Positions 15,629 through 23,322 of a stretch of 24,157 bases of DNA are shown here, one piece after another. Made by a program: the position numbers and the translations under genes. The stretch spans positions 1-24,157 of the forward strand of contig JALGVQ010000012.1 of the NCBI GenBank assembly GCA_025774615.1, given 5' to 3'. The stretch is from a bacterium (GTDB lineage: Bacteria; Blakebacterota; Blakebacteria; Blakebacterales; Blakebacteraceae). Positions within the stretch are counted from its first letter, which is position 1. Each line of letters opens with the position of its first letter. The notes below the pieces were generated by a model. It saw only the letters and a list, made by a program, of their open reading frames with translations, had not been told where the DNA came from and did no database searches.

Positions 15629-15679
15629 ACTCATGACACACTGATGAGTGTCAGATTGAACACTCATGAGTGTCAGATT
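15629..15679. promoter_or_regulatory. Cluster of direct and inverted repeats upstream of the lytic transglycosylase
   Basis: ATGAGTGTCAGATT occurs twice (15644-15657 and 15666-15679), 22 bp apart. ACACTCATGAGTGT (15660-15673) is a perfect 14-bp palindrome, and TGACAC (15634-15639) is the inverse of GTGTCA (15648-15653). This looks like a multi-site operator. It lies about 30 bp after a -10-like TATAAC (15592-15597) in the 370-bp gap 15408-15777. The rest of the gap holds the peptidase leader, with no other gene or RNA that I can recognise. Confidence 0.5.
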
Positions 15680-15777
15680 CCCCCGTTACCTTAATACTGT
15701 CAAAGTCGGGGCCGACCGGGTTCAATCAAGAGCCCGCGATCGGCCCTTGCTATAACTGGCGAGGTGGTTTGAGTACG

Positions 15778-16380
15778 ATGAGATATAAACAGATAGATCG
15801 GCCGTCCATCATGCGGTCGATCGTCTTCATCGGGGTGGCCGTCCTGGTCTCGGTTCTCGTTCTCCAGCAACAGGAAATCGATCGTCTGCGCAAGCTGTCG
15901 AAAACGCAGACTGAGATCGTGGCACACCATCAGGCGTGGGCAACTACGGCTGTCTCCCACCTTGATCTCATCAGAAGATATAATATTCCCTACCGGTATC
16001 TGGAGATCCTTGCCGAGGTCAGCAGAGAACATGACCTCGACCTGGAATTCATGGTGGGGCTGATGCAGGTGGAGAGTTCATTCAATCAGAATGCCGTGAG
16101 CGACAAGGATGCCTACGGACTCATGCAGGTGCGTTTCAGCACCGCCCTGGAACTCGATCCCACGATCGAGACCTTCTGGCAACTGTACAGTCCGGAACGG
16201 AACATCCGTCTCGGTTCGGAATATTTCAGGAAACTGCTCGACCGCTACGGTGGTGACTACCGGATGGCGGCTCTGGCGTATAATCGGGGGCCGACCCGGC
16301 TCGACACTGAACTTTCAGACAATATTGACATCTCTGACCATTACTATCGCAAGATCCGTACCGCCGGGAATATGGATTAG
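15778..16380 (+). CDS. Membrane-anchored lytic transglycosylase (SLT domain)
   Basis: 200 residues from the chosen ATG. One N-terminal transmembrane segment (IVFIGVAVLVSVLVL) is followed by a short coiled stretch and an SLT domain over roughly residues 70-195. It should cleave the MurNAc-GlcNAc bond of peptidoglycan in the periplasm. GLMQVESSFN supplies the catalytic Glu, followed by the AYGLMQV and AYNRGP motifs typical of Slt/MltC-like enzymes. The frame is open to 15670. ATG 15778 and TTG 15769 both follow GAGGTGG; the ATG is preferred, though spacing is long. Its stop overlaps the end of the convergent SDR gene by 4 bp. Confidence 0.9.
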   Translation: MRYKQIDRPSIMRSIVFIGVAVLVSVLVLQQQEIDRLRKLSKTQTEIVAHHQAWATTAVSHLDLIRRYNIPYRYLEILAEVSREHDLDLEFMVGLMQVESSFNQNAVSDKDAYGLMQVRFSTALELDPTIETFWQLYSPERNIRLGSEYFRKLLDRYGGDYRMAALAYNRGPTRLDTELSDNIDISDHYYRKIRTAGNMD

Positions 16381-17369
16381 AGCCAGCCCATCCTTTGATA
16401 CCAGTCGGCAGTGTCCCTGATTCCTTCCTCCTGGGTCCGGGCCGGACTCCATTCGAGTTCGCGCCGGGCCCTGGCGCTATCGCACGTCCAGTAGCGTTCC
16501 GCGAAGTCCTTCATCCTCGTTCTGGTGAGAATCGCCGATCCCGCCCCCATCTTGCGCAGGAACCAGTTCACTCCGACCACTGCCCAGAGCAGCATGTCGG
16601 GGATCGGCACCAGGATCACCCGTCGATCAAGCGCTGATGCGATCTGGCGTGCCATATCTGCGGTCCAGCAATAGGTCTGATCGCTTGCCATATAGGTTCT
16701 ACCGGCGGCGATATCGAGCCTTCCGGCGCGTTCGATCAGATCTGCCAGGTCATCGGCATGTATCAGGCTGAGGCACTGATCACCCATCCTGAGCGGTAGA
16801 ATCCCCCGGCGAACCAGCTGAAACGCCTTGAGAAGATTCTGGTCTCCGGGACCATATACGATACCCGGTCTCACAATCGTGAGAGGACACCCCCCCACCA
16901 GACCCTCTCTGCAGGCAACTTCTCCGGCCAGTTTCGACTCTCCGTATGGTGTTATCGGAACCGTCGGGTCATCTTCGTTCAGTGGCTGTCCTTCACTGGA
17001 TGGACCATTGGCCGCGATACTCGATATGTAGACGAACCTTTTCAGGGACTGAATTTCCGAGCAGGCCTCGGCAAGATATCGTGACCCGTCAACATTTACG
17101 TCCCAGTATGCCTCCTTCGATCTGGCTCCAGTTACACCCGCCACATGGAAGATGACATCTGATCCTGCGATCTCATCCCGGTACGATCGGGGATCGGTGA
17201 AATTACCGATGACAAATTCAATATCGAGATCATCCAGGATTGAGAGATCTGAAGACGCCCGTACCAGTGCCCGGACCTGATATCCCCTCTCGAGCAGCGT
17301 CCGGATCAGATACGATCCGACGAAACCGTTCCCCCCCGTGACAAATGCTGTCCTGCATGCTCTTTCCAC
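16377..17369 (-). CDS. Extended SDR: NAD-dependent epimerase/dehydratase family oxidoreductase
   Basis: 330 residues. The Rossmann motif TGGNGFVGS has its three glycines at 12, 15 and 18. The catalytic Tyr142 and Lys146 lie in YGESK, with a Ser in FVYISSIAANG. RPGIVYGPGDQ and a hydrophobic segment near the C-terminus (LLWAVVGVNWFL) resemble the dihydroflavonol reductase/3-beta-HSD branch, which includes lipid-modifying enzymes. The frame runs to ATG 17447, but GTG 17369 is chosen because AGGAGAGGG lies 6 bp upstream and the fold begins immediately. It is divergent from a serine palmitoyltransferase-like gene. The bacterial ceramide pathway uses an SDR of this class (CerR), so that role is plausible but unproven. 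Confidence 0.88.
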   Translation of the reverse strand: MERACRTAFVTGGNGFVGSYLIRTLLERGYQVRALVRASSDLSILDDLDIEFVIGNFTDPRSYRDEIAGSDVIFHVAGVTGARSKEAYWDVNVDGSRYLAEACSEIQSLKRFVYISSIAANGPSSEGQPLNEDDPTVPITPYGESKLAGEVACREGLVGGCPLTIVRPGIVYGPGDQNLLKAFQLVRRGILPLRMGDQCLSLIHADDLADLIERAGRLDIAAGRTYMASDQTYCWTADMARQIASALDRRVILVPIPDMLLWAVVGVNWFLRKMGAGSAILTRTRMKDFAERYWTCDSARARRELEWSPARTQEEGIRDTADWYQRMGWL

Positions 17370-17594
17370 AGACGTCCCTCTCCTCATCCTGCCTGACCTG
17401 TCCGATGATGATGTCATACATTGACACTGAACGAAAAACGTGGTCATCGTCCGATGTCTGTCAGTACTTTATACTGGGCTGAAGCATCGGGAGGAAAGAG
17501 AGAACCCGGCGGAGCCGGTGAGTCAACCCACAACTCCTGTGGAGCTGAGGAGCGCGAACAACCAACCTTATACAGTCAGGAATAGCATACCGAG

Positions 17595-18779
17595 ATGGAT
17601 CTGTTCCGGAAATGTTTCCAGTGGAAAGACTGGAAAACGGCCCAGCAGTTCGGCTACTACCCCTATTTCACGCCGATAGAGAGTGAAGCGGGCCCTATCG
17701 TTGAAATCAATGGCGAGCGGAAAATCATGCTCGGCTCGAATAACTATATGGGTCTCACGAACCACCCTGAGGTCAAACAGGCCGCCTCCGATGCTGTACT
17801 GAAGTACGGATCGGGCTGTACAGGATCCCGGTTCCTCAATGGAACGCTTGATATCCATGTCGAACTGGAGGAATCGCTGGCCGCCTGGCTCGGCAAGGAA
17901 GCCGCGCTGGTGTTCTCAACCGGCTTCTTCGTGAATCAGGGGGTGATCTCGGCCCTCGTCAGCAGTGATGATGTGATCATCTCCGATCGACTCAACCATG
18001 CCAGCATCGTGGAGGGCAGCAAGCTGGCAGCCGGCGAGACCATCAGGTACAAGCACAATGACATGGAGGACCTGGAACGTATCCTGCAGAAAGTACCGGA
18101 TACGACCGGAAAATTCATTGTTACCGATGGTATATTCTCAGGCGAAGGAACGGTCGCCAATGTTCGCGGGATCGTGGAGCTGGCCAAGAAATATGGCGCC
18201 CGCGTCATGGTGGATGAGGCCCACTCTGTGGGTGTGTATGGTTCGGAGGGCAGGGGTATCGCCGATGAGCAGGGGCAGCTTGATGCAACAGATCTCTACA
18301 TGGCGACCTTCAGCAAATCATTCGGTGGGGTGGGCGGGTTCGTGGCGGGACCGTACGAGGTCATCATGTGGATCAAGCACAAAGCCCGGCCGATGATCTT
18401 CTCTGCCAGCCTCCCCCCGGCCTCGGTCGCGGGCGTCCGTAAAGCTCTCGATCTCATCAGGGAAGGCGATGACAGGCGCGCCAAGCTGATCGCGAATGCT
18501 GACAGAATGCGCACCGGCCTGCAGGAGATCGGGTTCGACATCGGTAATTCCGCCAGCCAGATCATCCCCCTGCAGGTAGGTGAGGATCTGAAGTGTGTGA
18601 AGTTCTGGAGGGCCCTTTTCAAGGCCGGCGTGTTCACCAACGCCTTTATCCATCCGGCAACCCCGCCGAACGGCGCCCTGATCAGGACATCATATATGCC
18701 CACACACACCGATGAGATGCTCGATGAAGCTCTCGACCTGTTGCAGCGTGTGGGGAAGAAACACAAGGTTATCAGATAG
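17595..18779 (+). CDS. spt: Serine palmitoyltransferase-like alpha-oxoamine synthase
   Basis: 394 residues. This is a PLP-dependent fold-type I enzyme that condenses an amino acid with an acyl-CoA. The PLP lysine is Lys241 (ATFSKSFGG). The ring-stacking His135 (NHASIVEG) and Asp207/His210 (VDEAHSVG) are present. YGSGCTGSRFLNGTLDIHVE and the FSTGF, KHNDM and IFSAS segments look closer, from memory, to Bacteroidetes serine palmitoyltransferases than to KBL or BioF, and no biotin or threonine genes lie nearby. The first step of sphingolipid synthesis is therefore the best call. The closely related 2-amino-3-ketobutyrate CoA ligase remains the alternative. The ribosome-binding site is weak. The gap 17370-17594 shared with the SDR gene has no confident promoter. 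Confidence 0.85.
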   Translation: MDLFRKCFQWKDWKTAQQFGYYPYFTPIESEAGPIVEINGERKIMLGSNNYMGLTNHPEVKQAASDAVLKYGSGCTGSRFLNGTLDIHVELEESLAAWLGKEAALVFSTGFFVNQGVISALVSSDDVIISDRLNHASIVEGSKLAAGETIRYKHNDMEDLERILQKVPDTTGKFIVTDGIFSGEGTVANVRGIVELAKKYGARVMVDEAHSVGVYGSEGRGIADEQGQLDATDLYMATFSKSFGGVGGFVAGPYEVIMWIKHKARPMIFSASLPPASVAGVRKALDLIREGDDRRAKLIANADRMRTGLQEIGFDIGNSASQIIPLQVGEDLKCVKFWRALFKAGVFTNAFIHPATPPNGALIRTSYMPTHTDEMLDEALDLLQRVGKKHKVIR

Positions 18780-18800: not shown

Positions 18801-19910
18801 TCAGTCGGTGGGCACCTCGAGCTTCGGCAGTTCATCTGTCCCATCAAGGCGCTTCAGCTTCAGGTCGAGTTTTCCCAACTGTTTCCTGCCCTGGTCATAT
18901 TTCTCGCCCGCGTTTTTCAGATGCTTGCCGAGGACTGAATATTCCTCGGTGAAGCGGTCCAGCTCGCCCTGAAGACGGTGCAGGTGGGTGAGGATCTCGT
19001 CTCCTCTCTTTTCCAGATCCATTCCCTTGAGTCCGTACAGAATGACCTGCAGGTATGCATAGAACGAATTTGGGCTGACCGGTATCACACGCCGTGTCAC
19101 GGCATAATGGAGCATCCCCGGCATGTCGGTCCCCTCACCCTCACTCTCATCTTTCACGATGGTCTCGTAGTAGACATTCTCGGCAGGGATATACATCAGG
19201 GCGAAGTTGAAGGTTCCCTCATCGGGTTGGATATACTTGGCGGCGATGTCATCGATCTTCTTTTCGACATTCTTGAGAAATACTCTTCTGGCCTTCTTGC
19301 GATCGGGCTCATCTGCCTCGAGGACCCGGCGGAAATCCTCGATCGGGAATTTCGAGTCGATCGGCACGATCATCTCACCGATCTTGATGATCGCGTCGAC
19401 CACAACGCCATTCGAGAACGCATACTGGGTCTCGAAGTGCGCCCTCGGGAAGATGTCGTCGAGCAGTTTCTCGAGGAAGATCTCCCCAACTCCCCCACGG
19501 AGTTTCGGCGAGCCGAGGATATCCTCCAGGCTGGCAATGTCCTTCCCGATATCCCGGATCTGCCCGGTCGCTTCGGAGAGGGCACCAAGTTCTTTCTTGA
19601 TACCCGCTACTGTATCGCTGCTGGAGGTGAGCTGTTTGGTGAGCAGTTCCTGCTGGCTCTTCAGCCGCTCATCAAGTGTGCTCTGCAGGCCCTGCAGGGT
19701 ACCGCTCATCCTGTCCATCTGGTCCTGGGCATGCTTCAGGGCATCGATCTGTCCTGTTTTGAGACCCGCACTCATTTCCTTTCCGGCATCTCTGACACTC
19801 TGTCCCACATCCCTGAGGCGGGTAAGCGCGCGAGTGACCAGCACGATGAGTACCGCTACCGGGAGAACGATGATGATGACGAGCGGCCAGAAATTTGTCG
19901 AGGGATCCAT
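18801..19910 (-). CDS. rmuC: RmuC-family protein (putative DNA recombination nuclease)
   Basis: 369 residues. One N-terminal transmembrane helix (about 9-27) is followed by a coiled-coil region (about 30-125), then the RmuC core. Core motifs are LRGGVGEIFLEKLLDDIFP, DAIIKIGEMIVPIDSKFP (a restriction-endonuclease-like acidic/Lys site) and FALMYIPAENVYYE. RmuC limits recombination at inverted repeats in E. coli and has been linked to defence against foreign DNA; biochemistry is sparse. It follows the lamin-tail gene on the same strand after a GC hairpin, and converges with spt with only 21 bp between them. Confidence 0.93.
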   Translation of the reverse strand: MDPSTNFWPLVIIIVLPVAVLIVLVTRALTRLRDVGQSVRDAGKEMSAGLKTGQIDALKHAQDQMDRMSGTLQGLQSTLDERLKSQQELLTKQLTSSSDTVAGIKKELGALSEATGQIRDIGKDIASLEDILGSPKLRGGVGEIFLEKLLDDIFPRAHFETQYAFSNGVVVDAIIKIGEMIVPIDSKFPIEDFRRVLEADEPDRKKARRVFLKNVEKKIDDIAAKYIQPDEGTFNFALMYIPAENVYYETIVKDESEGEGTDMPGMLHYAVTRRVIPVSPNSFYAYLQVILYGLKGMDLEKRGDEILTHLHRLQGELDRFTEEYSVLGKHLKNAGEKYDQGRKQLGKLDLKLKRLDGTDELPKLEVPTD

Positions 19911-19982: not shown

Positions 19983-22900
19983 CTATTTCAGGAGGATAAC
20001 CTTGCGCGAGGTGCGATCACCGTTGACCTCGAGCACAACCAGATAGACCCCCGCGGCAACCCTGGCGCCTGTTGCGTCGGTGCCATCCCACCGTATCTGC
20101 CAGGTCCCTCCAGGCTGCGTGGCATCCACGAGACTCTTGGTCAGGCGTCCCCGAACATCTCTCACTTCGAGAGAGACGATGTGTTCTCCCCCTGCGGGAA
20201 GGGTGTAGCGAAGCACGGTCTCCGGATTGAATGGGTTTGGAACGGCCGGCAGCAGCGCGAACCTGTCATTCTCCCCGGGTAGTGACAGCGCCGCGGGCCC
20301 GACCCACCGTTGCTGGCCATGAAATACCAGGCGCACCGCAACTGCCTCAGGCGCCAGCTGTCCCTCCGGTCCGGATGACGGCGTGAGTCCGACCATGAAA
20401 GTGGGTGGCAGGCCCGGTTCCCACATGAACTCATCCGCAGCCGGCATCCACAACCTCGGATCGCCGGCAGGCCCACCCCCACCCCGGTGTGAAGTGTATC
20501 CGAAATATGGCTGAAGGATGAGTGGCTCCTCACCATGCAGGACCTGCCAGCGCAACCTGATCGACAACGGTCCCATCTCCTCGATTTCGAGTCCGCTCAC
20601 AGATAACGGAGGGCCGGAGAACTCGAATACGCTGAGAGAGGATCTTCCCGACACCGCCTGGAGAGGCCAGCGCGTCCAGCCTCCATCTTCGGCGCATTCC
20701 ATGAGTGCCGGCGACCCGGAGCCCTCGACAGTCGGTACCGGATCACGGGGAAGGAGTGCATACCACCCTCCACCACCGGCAGGTGTGGTTGGAACAAGCC
20801 TCTCCCCGATCTCAAGGAGGAACAGGGCTTCGCCATCGGGAACCGGTCCCCAGGCCCACTTCGGCAGATCGGGAAGACCTCCCGCGTCAACGACCAGGTC
20901 TCTTATGAACCGGCGATCACCCTCATGACCGGGAATGCGCAGGACCGCCCGGTACCTCCCGCCGCTGAGGCCAGTCACCCGGGCTGTCTGCCAGCCCGAC
21001 CCTGTTGTTGGCGGGGTCTGCCACGCCAGCGCTCCGTCTTCCCGTTCCAGAATGGGCGTGACTGATACCGGAGCGGCCCAGCAGATCGTCACAGCGCCCG
21101 GACCATCTGGAAAAGCCAGCAGGGCACCCGGATCCTTCGTGATCACCCGTCGGGGAGCACCTGACGGCAAACCGGAGATCGCCCCGGATCCGGCCGATCC
21201 GTGAAGAGAGAGAGCTGCAGGCTGCCAGGCAGTCACCGTATCAACATCGATCGCGACCGCTTCTCCCCACTCGAGTGGGAAGTCAACGCCGACCGTTCTG
21301 CCATCAGGAAGGCGGAAAAGTCCGTCCCACGCCTGCCGGTGCCGGTCCCATCTGCTCACCGCGACGATCGCGGAATCGGTGAGAATGTCACCGGCCGACC
21401 GCACCGAAGTGGAGTCACTGATCCCCACCAGGGCCAGACCAGCCCCCTGCTGGATCGACGGGGGGGCATATCTGCGTGGTCCATGCACCTGGAGTGTTCC
21501 GCTTGTCGCGCTCACGAGTGCGTACCCCACTCCCGGCTCAAGGGTGAAATCGGTGCCGCTTATGGTTCCGTCGGTTAATCTCGCCGCTGAGACCCACGAC
21601 GCGGTAACGACGTCCCACCGCGCCATCTCACCTGGGCCCGGCAGGTTTCCCAACCAGTCATGAGCAGTCAGGAGCTGTGGGTCGATGAGAGTCGGAGTCA
21701 GAAGGTCGATCCCCTCGATGAGATCGATGCTCCGATAGATCTGGTGGGATATCCGTACCGGATCGGCGATTTCCATCTGTACCGGCGGATTGAGACCATC
21801 CTCCACCTCAGCCCCGATCCACCAGATCGTACCCTCGGGAAGATGGTCCAGATGAACCTCCACGATCCCCGGATTCCCTTTCGGGAGGATGGCGGGTACC
21901 GTTTCGACGGGGATACGCTCCTCTTCTCCTTCACCCCTCAGATAGACGCGCGCCCATGCCTCACCCGGATCGGTGAGCGTGTAACGCAGAATGATACTGC
22001 TGTCGACTGCCGTGCCGGCAGGGATCGCCTCCCACATAAAGGACGGGGCGGGATCGGGCAGCAGGCCGGGCAGAGTGACCTCCTGTGGTGATGAGGCGGC
22101 GATGAATCCTTCTGTAATAGCGACACCGGAACCGGCACCATCAGCATCCACGAACAGCGTATCTCCGGCGATCCAGGCCAACGGTCCGCCATCAGGAGAT
22201 CTCAGGTTGCCCAGGTTCAGGTTCCACCTGCCAGTGGAATCACTTACCGCGGCCAGCCATCCTGATCGACCTGCCATACCCCCCGATCTGAGGAACACAT
22301 GCGCCCCGGGTACCGGAAGACCACTTCCACCTGAGATGAGTAAACCGTACACCGTGAATGGGATCGAGGTAGACACACCCGCGGTCTGCTGGACCAGGAA
22401 GGTGTCTGCCGGCGCTACCGTTCCCCCGCTCACCACACGCCAGCGCGTTTCCGATCGGGGGTTTAGGCCGTAGATCCCTGCCAGATGGAGCACTCCCGCC
22501 GGAGTGGGATCGTATATATGCCTGATCGATCCATTCATTTCGACCTCGATCCTGCCGTCCGCCGCGCTTCCCGACCTCCAGGCAACCTGATATCCTGCGC
22601 TGGTGAGGTTGACAGTCCGAAGACGATACACCGTCGGATGTCCAGCTCCGGGACCGCCCCCGGACTCGGCCGGTCCGCCCGGACTGAAGAGTGTACCGGC
22701 GACCAGAGGGTGTTCTGTAAATTCTCCCCATCCTTCGGGAGAACGTGTCCAGGCACTATCGGTGTCCCACTCCCCGTACGAGATGTCCTGCACGGTATCG
22801 GCCGCAGCGGGATCCACCAGCAGGATGCGTCCACCCGTGTTGGTCAGACCCGATCCTATCCGGCCGCCAGCGGTGAACGCCAACCCCGGTGGGCTGACAG

Positions 22901-23240
22901 GAGAACCGCCGCCGAACACGACAGCATATTCTCCGGGAGCGAGCAGTGTTCCTTCCGGAAAAGTGAATGGAGTACTTCCCGAAGGCCCCGTCTCCCATCC
23001 GGAAATGTCCACCGGGGTCGTTCCCCGATTCACGAATTCGATGAATTCATCCTGATAGGTGTCGCGAACGCCATCTCCGTTCGCGTCTCCATCGAGATCG
23101 GAGGCCGGATCAGCCAGAATCTCGTTGATGACGATCTGTGGCGTTTCTGATCGGGGAAGAACGACAGCAAGGGGAATGGCGATTCCCAACAGTAATCCTC
23201 CCGCCACTGTCAGCAGGGAGGTACATTGTTTCTTCGGCAT
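19983..23240 (-). CDS. Large surface/secreted protein: lamin-tail domain plus FlgD-Ig-like C-terminus
   Basis: 1085 residues. An N-terminal signal or anchor helix (about 8-27) is followed by a lamin-tail domain: QIVINEILADP, an internal Asp-rich calcium-like loop DLDGDANGDGVRD, then DEFIEFVNRG and DISGWE. The middle is beta-rich, with fibronectin-like and carboxypeptidase-regulatory-like segments and two related modules with W-rich strands (around SGTDFTLEPGVGYAL and VGVDFPLEWGEAVAI). The C-terminus, PNPFNPETVLRYTLP through GVYLVVLEVNG, is a FlgD-Ig-like domain that often acts as a sorting or anchoring tail in FCB-type phyla. ATG 23240 is chosen because GGAG lies 6 bp upstream, rather than ATG 23261. 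It is divergent from an ECF sigma gene. Ligand and function are unknown. Confidence 0.88.
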   Translation of the reverse strand: MPKKQCTSLLTVAGGLLLGIAIPLAVVLPRSETPQIVINEILADPASDLDGDANGDGVRDTYQDEFIEFVNRGTTPVDISGWETGPSGSTPFTFPEGTLLAPGEYAVVFGGGSPVSPPGLAFTAGGRIGSGLTNTGGRILLVDPAAADTVQDISYGEWDTDSAWTRSPEGWGEFTEHPLVAGTLFSPGGPAESGGGPGAGHPTVYRLRTVNLTSAGYQVAWRSGSAADGRIEVEMNGSIRHIYDPTPAGVLHLAGIYGLNPRSETRWRVVSGGTVAPADTFLVQQTAGVSTSIPFTVYGLLISGGSGLPVPGAHVFLRSGGMAGRSGWLAAVSDSTGRWNLNLGNLRSPDGGPLAWIAGDTLFVDADGAGSGVAITEGFIAASSPQEVTLPGLLPDPAPSFMWEAIPAGTAVDSSIILRYTLTDPGEAWARVYLRGEGEEERIPVETVPAILPKGNPGIVEVHLDHLPEGTIWWIGAEVEDGLNPPVQMEIADPVRISHQIYRSIDLIEGIDLLTPTLIDPQLLTAHDWLGNLPGPGEMARWDVVTASWVSAARLTDGTISGTDFTLEPGVGYALVSATSGTLQVHGPRRYAPPSIQQGAGLALVGISDSTSVRSAGDILTDSAIVAVSRWDRHRQAWDGLFRLPDGRTVGVDFPLEWGEAVAIDVDTVTAWQPAALSLHGSAGSGAISGLPSGAPRRVITKDPGALLAFPDGPGAVTICWAAPVSVTPILEREDGALAWQTPPTTGSGWQTARVTGLSGGRYRAVLRIPGHEGDRRFIRDLVVDAGGLPDLPKWAWGPVPDGEALFLLEIGERLVPTTPAGGGGWYALLPRDPVPTVEGSGSPALMECAEDGGWTRWPLQAVSGRSSLSVFEFSGPPLSVSGLEIEEMGPLSIRLRWQVLHGEEPLILQPYFGYTSHRGGGGPAGDPRLWMPAADEFMWEPGLPPTFMVGLTPSSGPEGQLAPEAVAVRLVFHGQQRWVGPAALSLPGENDRFALLPAVPNPFNPETVLRYTLPAGGEHIVSLEVRDVRGRLTKSLVDATQPGGTWQIRWDGTDATGARVAAGVYLVVLEVNGDRTSRKVILLK

Positions 23241-23322
23241 GGATTGCTCCAATCGATCCATTGCCGGGGGTTGGCACTAAATCTGTTCAGGGGGTAAGGG
23301 GAGTAGTACAATCGGGAGAACA

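Follow-up and report, generated by a model that had tools for sequence, protein, structure and literature searches.

The Rhodobacterial cluster for ceramide synthesis consists of aasR-cerR-acpR-spt plus cerS (CC_1165-1162 and CC_1154 in Caulobacter; ECD_02850-02854 in E. coli B) and thus combines a serine palmitoyltransferase (SPT) with the reductase CerR, an acyl carrier protein, an acyl-ACP ligase and a bacterial ceramide synthase (bCerS); for the latter we follow the nomenclature of the YghO/CC_1154 family (PMC9386255, PMC11324152). The SPTs of Bacteroidetes use acyl-CoA (PMC11324152). Sulfonolipids have likewise been described from Bacteroidetes, together with the position that switches between SPT (Ala) and SulA (Lys281) (PMC9304779). 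Work on the Black Sea published in 2024 described Spt-like proteins from 38 phyla, with CerR and bCerS frequently encoded in the vicinity but unlinked in other cases (PMC11334938); the broad spread of the SPT-CerR-bCerS trio is therefore already on record. Zixibacteria are not named in the main text of that study, and our literature search found no paper in which Zixibacteria and serine palmitoyltransferase are both mentioned, a result that indicates only weakly that no such report exists.

The window, i.e. the whole stretch of 24,157 nucleotides analysed here, contains two divergently oriented genes. The first encodes an extended short-chain dehydrogenase/reductase (SDR) of the CerR type (positions 16377-17447, minus strand, 356 aa), predicted from homology, tree and catalytic residues to be a 3-ketosphinganine or 3-keto-ceramide reductase. 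The second encodes an SPT-type alpha-oxoamine synthase (AOS; 17595-18779, plus strand, 394 aa), for which homology, model scores, tree and active site predict the first step of long-chain base synthesis. Each reading frame is open at exactly these ends, which confirms the pair of SDR and SPT-like genes that an earlier note on this DNA had read at 16377-18779. The divergent starts are separated by 147 bp (17448-17594), which presumably harbour both promoters; a promoter scan of this gap found no consensus sigma-70 site. The adjacent genes, a lytic transglycosylase (15670-16380) overlapping the end of the SDR gene by 4 bp and an RmuC gene on the side of the AOS (18801-19910, minus strand), are both unrelated to the pathway. 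Further along, positions 19983-23261 (minus strand) encode a likely secreted protein of 1092 aa with a lamin-tail domain and an FlgD-type Ig domain. Comparison with a sister genome showed purifying selection on both genes of the pair (dN/dS of about 0.10 for the AOS and about 0.23 for the SDR), and both are therefore maintained as proteins. With a probability that we put at roughly 0.8, and judging from sequence, the pair represents two of the three enzymes of the bacterial ceramide backbone, the bCerS being encoded at an unlinked site.

The closest solved protein of the AOS is the SPT of Sphingobacterium multivorum (SmSPT; 3A2B, E 2e-108), which is matched over the full length (residues 5-390), followed by 2-amino-3-ketobutyrate CoA ligase (KBL; 1FC4, E 2e-82) and then by other SPTs, cysteate-fatty-acyltransferase (CFAT) and BioF. 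Among the NCBIfam models, SPT of the CFB type (SerpalmtaseCFB, NF047600) scored highest with 470.6 bits, ahead of KBL (384.5), BioF (373.1) and HemA (275.5). None of these four models reached its cut-off; that of NF047600 is 640 bits, and the AOS is therefore not filed as an equivalog of this model. Relatives of the AOS located beside genes of the CerR or bCerS type likewise miss the SPT cut-off (580 and 590 versus 640 bits). The nearest public AOS sequences show 83% and 77% identity, the latter from a metagenome-assembled genome (MAG) labelled Candidatus Zixiibacteriota, and are followed by Zixibacteria with about 52-55%.

The active site is complete. The PLP lysine K241 as well as H135, D207, H210, N49 and R364 are present, as the earlier note had stated for the catalytic residues of the family, and the intact set further includes S78, T238, S240 and A271. 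At three of these positions, S78, S240 and A271, the AOS agrees with SPT and differs from KBL, which has V, G and N there. In a tree of 98 rows, of which 80 were chosen by similarity to the AOS of the window and only nine represent KBL, BioF or HemA, the AOS groups with five Bacteroidota SPTs, SmSPT among them (support 98/97); KBL (100/100) and HemA are separate, BioF lies outside the SPT group, and the SPT of E. coli B is found outside it as well, on a long branch. The proposed resemblance to Bacteroidetes Spt is thus borne out, with the Sphingobacterium and Bacteroides-type SPTs as tree partners and not the KBL/BioF clade. That the AOS is nevertheless a KBL, a BioF or a related short-chain enzyme, with the SDR as an unrelated protein or a threonine dehydrogenase partner, could be argued from the fold and most catalytic residues, which are common to all AOS enzymes, and from the substantial bit scores with the KBL and BioF models. 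We regard this identity as contradicted by the tree, the model scores (384.5 bits against a KBL cut-off of 460) and the presence of a separate true KBL gene on contig C26 of the same genome (580 bits); in addition, tdh or bio neighbours, which the earlier note had named as partners that would speak against its reading, are absent, the actual partner being a relative of E. coli CerR, and relatives of the AOS show a conserved linkage to the bCerS family. This reading retains only a very small probability.

A role as SulA or CFAT, making capnine and sulfonolipids, is more improbable still: the AOS has Ala271, the SPT state, where SulA has Lys281, and scores 234 bits with CFAT 28EH versus 366 bits with SPT. 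We therefore reject this identity as well. Another gene of the genome fits CFAT. The AOS encoded on contig C132 (L141:1137-2339) scores 386 bits with CFAT 28EH, 374 with SulA 7U7H and 256 with SPT among the solved relatives, has Lys at the position of SulA Lys281, and possesses an ortholog with 91% identity in a sister genome of the same genus. These features suggest that it is CFAT-like and may serve sulfonolipid synthesis outside the Bacteroidota. A third AOS of the long-chain type, with the SPT state Ala and 43% identity to the AOS of the window, is located on contig C260, where it forms one gene run (L140:3550-7799) with genes for a ThiL-like protein, a UbiA prenyltransferase and a lipid kinase of the YegS type, possibly a second lipid cluster.

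The amino acid substrate is a different matter. The sequence is compatible with serine as well as alanine, and if the AOS used alanine or glycine, the products would be 1-deoxy-ceramides formed with the same SDR and acyltransferase in the subsequent steps. 1-Deoxyceramides are abundant in the Black Sea and have been linked to uncultured carriers of Spt-like proteins (PMC11334938), and the active-site residues checked do not separate serine from alanine. However, these positions are identical to those of SmSPT with the single exception of Met271, which is replaced by Ile as in a Bacteroides SPT. We therefore view alanine or glycine as an unlikely, though not negligible, choice and refer to the AOS as SPT in the following.

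The SDR matches the Pfam Epimerase family (121 bits) and retains the cofactor motif TGGNGFVG (TGxxGFxG), Ser142/143 and Tyr168-xxx-Lys172. Its start is uncertain and probably lies about 30 codons inside the annotated one, because aligned relatives point to roughly 30 surplus residues at the N-terminus. Aligned over 322 aa, the SDR is 30% identical to the CerR/epi protein encoded in the ceramide cluster of E. coli B; as reference sequences for CerR and bCerS we used the E. coli B orthologues as given in PMC9386255. In the SDR tree, the SDR of the window, E. coli CerR and all 31 of the 31 SPT-adjacent SDRs form one group of 38 rows, and 3WJ7 (HpnA-like), GalE and RfaD are placed outside; the SDR superfamily is broad, and the support for this group is moderate (87/94). 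The assignment to the class of CerR made in the earlier note is in agreement with this placement. The source genome encodes a second SDR of the CerR type, which is not linked to SPT (contig C159), and sister genome G002 has a tandem pair of such SDRs on one contig (L135:1226-3213), one of which groups with the C159 copy.

To what extent the SDR belongs functionally to its neighbour can be judged from the genomic context of related genes. A survey of 80 AOS relatives from several phyla covered 1009 other open reading frames; the SDR, GNAT and KdsR profiles were built from the surveyed loci themselves, so that the counts given below depend on the search, and loci that are related do not represent independent observations. 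SDR-family matches were found 39 times, and each of them occupies the position immediately upstream of the AOS, 22 divergent as in the window and 17 in tandem. With 39 of 39 matches among 1009 reading frames in this one position, adjacency of SDR and SPT is not due to chance. A GNAT-family gene is present downstream of the AOS in 33 of the 80 loci (position +1 in 31 and +2 in two), and 22 loci combine it with the SDR. E. coli CerR (206 bits) and YghO (363 bits) were both recognised although neither was used for profile building, and within the linked GNAT family identity to E. coli YghO reaches 38% (375 aa aligned). The match of YghO to the profile identifies the linked GNAT family as the bCerS family of YghO/CC_1154. 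According to the record labels, the SDR-SPT pair occurs in Zixibacteria, Nitrospirota, Acidobacteriota/Aminicenantes, Ignavibacteriota, Gemmatimonadota and Firestonebacteria, and a plasmid of Aureispira carries SDR, SPT and bCerS in the same divergent order as the window. A KdsR-type reductase, an assignment based on 250 bits with NCBIfam KdsR for one example, is located at position -1 or +1 of SPT in 10 of the 80 loci, all of which lack an SDR of the CerR type.

It could still be asked whether the SDR is an HpnA-like or sugar-type enzyme that lies next to a genuine SPT without any part in its pathway, as SDRs are abundant and the best curated model for this SDR is HpnA, far under its cut-off. 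HpnA, however, is the best-scoring model for E. coli CerR too, and the constant upstream position in the survey together with the substitution by KdsR at other loci speaks against such a coincidence, which we deem improbable. An SDR of the CerR type acting in the same pathway as SPT remains our interpretation.

Other arrangements were also noted during the survey. In nine loci of Aminicenantes/Acidobacteriota (L051, L055, L062, L070, L073, L075, L080, L096, L106) the upstream SDR of the CerR type is kept and bCerS is replaced; here SPT is followed by a protein of about 600 aa with a match to the SpoIVB peptidase S55 family and mostly also by a protein of about 720 aa, to which no function is assigned. 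Two MAGs labelled as Thermoplasmatota archaea, possibly as a result of mis-binning, encode an AOS of the SPT group that is a tree neighbour of the window clade (loci L044:731-6147 and L054), with a ketosynthase/ACP protein and an undecaprenyl diphosphate synthase as neighbours and, in L044, a patatin.

No bCerS gene is present beside the SPT of the window, whose source MAG (3.3 Mb, 324 contigs) is 82% complete, and genes for AasR and AcpR are also absent from the window; the earlier note was thus correct that ceramide synthase and acyl carrier or ligase are missing there, and its supposition of a split pathway, with a search for bCerS in the rest of the genome, has proved right. The source genome encodes two full-length bCerS homologues, on contigs C115 (277 bits, E 1e-82) and C47 (239 bits, E 5e-71), and each of the three sister genomes, which together with the source genome constitute the sparsely sampled phylum-level group examined here (four genomes of a single family), encodes one, the copy in G003 being partial. 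These homologues are divergent: of 37 invariant residues, the C115 copy keeps 21 and the C47 copy 18, and in the bCerS tree the C115 clade has a long branch and is placed together with G006 (support 88/87). Of 60 genomes, 18 encode a strong SPT-like AOS (E <= 1e-95), and bCerS was found in 16 of these compared with 7 of the remaining 42 (Fisher p 2e-7, and 6e-6 when the phylum of the window is left out); some of these seven carriers may have other types of SPT. At L137:3858-6073, the C115 bCerS gene is followed by a lipid kinase gene with a DAGK catalytic domain, and at two Bacteroides-type SPT loci (L148, L149) a gene of the diacylglycerol kinase family is divergent from SPT; a function of such genes as sphinganine or ceramide kinases is possible.

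With respect to the remaining components, a search of the whole genome for AasR, the acyl-ACP ligase of the Rhodobacterial type, yielded weak, partial and generic matches only (best 47.6 bits). With no convincing AasR, we reject the acyl-ACP-dependent Rhodobacterial type for this genome, and acyl-CoA or a housekeeping acyl-ACP probably serves as the donor. KdsR was rejected as the reductase of this genome, as only generic SDR matches were found (best 91 bits against a cut-off of 400).

From these components the following route can be proposed. SPT would form 3-ketosphinganine by condensation of L-serine and a long-chain acyl thioester, a bCerS-family N-acyltransferase, for which the divergent C115 protein is the best candidate, would add the second acyl chain, and the SDR of the CerR type would use NAD(P)H to reduce the keto group at C3, yielding dihydroceramide. 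This order, with acylation preceding reduction, is adopted by analogy to the proposal for Caulobacter; the reverse, with reduction first, has been described in Bacteroides with a KdsR-type reductase. Judged by gene content, sphingolipid synthesis along a known route is thus probable in this lineage. All four genomes of this phylum-level group encode SPT, an SDR of the CerR type and a bCerS homologue, and they join the predicted sphingolipid makers. Rather tentatively, one may go further and imagine a lineage outside the Bacteroidota that combines a ceramide pathway with the sulfonolipid enzyme on C132 in mixed membranes of ceramide and capnine type, and see in the choice of CerR or KdsR beside SPT two pathway orders in bacteria.

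In comparison with the described systems, the locus has a composite character. It resembles the SPTs of Sphingobacterium multivorum and of the Bacteroides type in its closest solved relative, its PLP- and carboxylate-binding residues and its tree group. In contrast to Bacteroidota SPTs, the AOS stays under the NCBI cut-off for the CFB type and forms a separate subgroup, and while the Bacteroides-type SPT is flanked by a gene of the diacylglycerol kinase family, the SPT of the window is flanked by an SDR of the CerR type. With the Rhodobacterial cluster it has in common an SPT, an SDR of the CerR type adjoining SPT and the bCerS family in the same genome, but it differs in that acpR and aasR are not among the neighbours, bCerS is unlinked and the AOS is nearer to Bacteroidota SPTs. 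CerR reduces oxidised ceramide and is periplasmic in Caulobacter; inspection of the SDR by eye showed no obvious signal sequence at its N-terminus. Close to the locus, too, is Spt-like clade B of the Black Sea MAGs, from the study in which Spt-like proteins often had CerR and bCerS nearby (PMC11334938). Finally, KdsR (BT_0972), the 3-ketosphinganine reductase, is predicted to perform the same step as the SDR of the window, reduction of the keto group of the long-chain base; unlike this extended SDR, KdsR is a classical SDR and is found beside SPT only where the extended SDR is missing. In none of the 80 loci do the CerR and KdsR types occur together, and the bCerS family accompanies the CerR type in 22 loci but KdsR in none. 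A comparison of these two architectures can therefore test which of acylation and reduction comes first, a matter of dispute.
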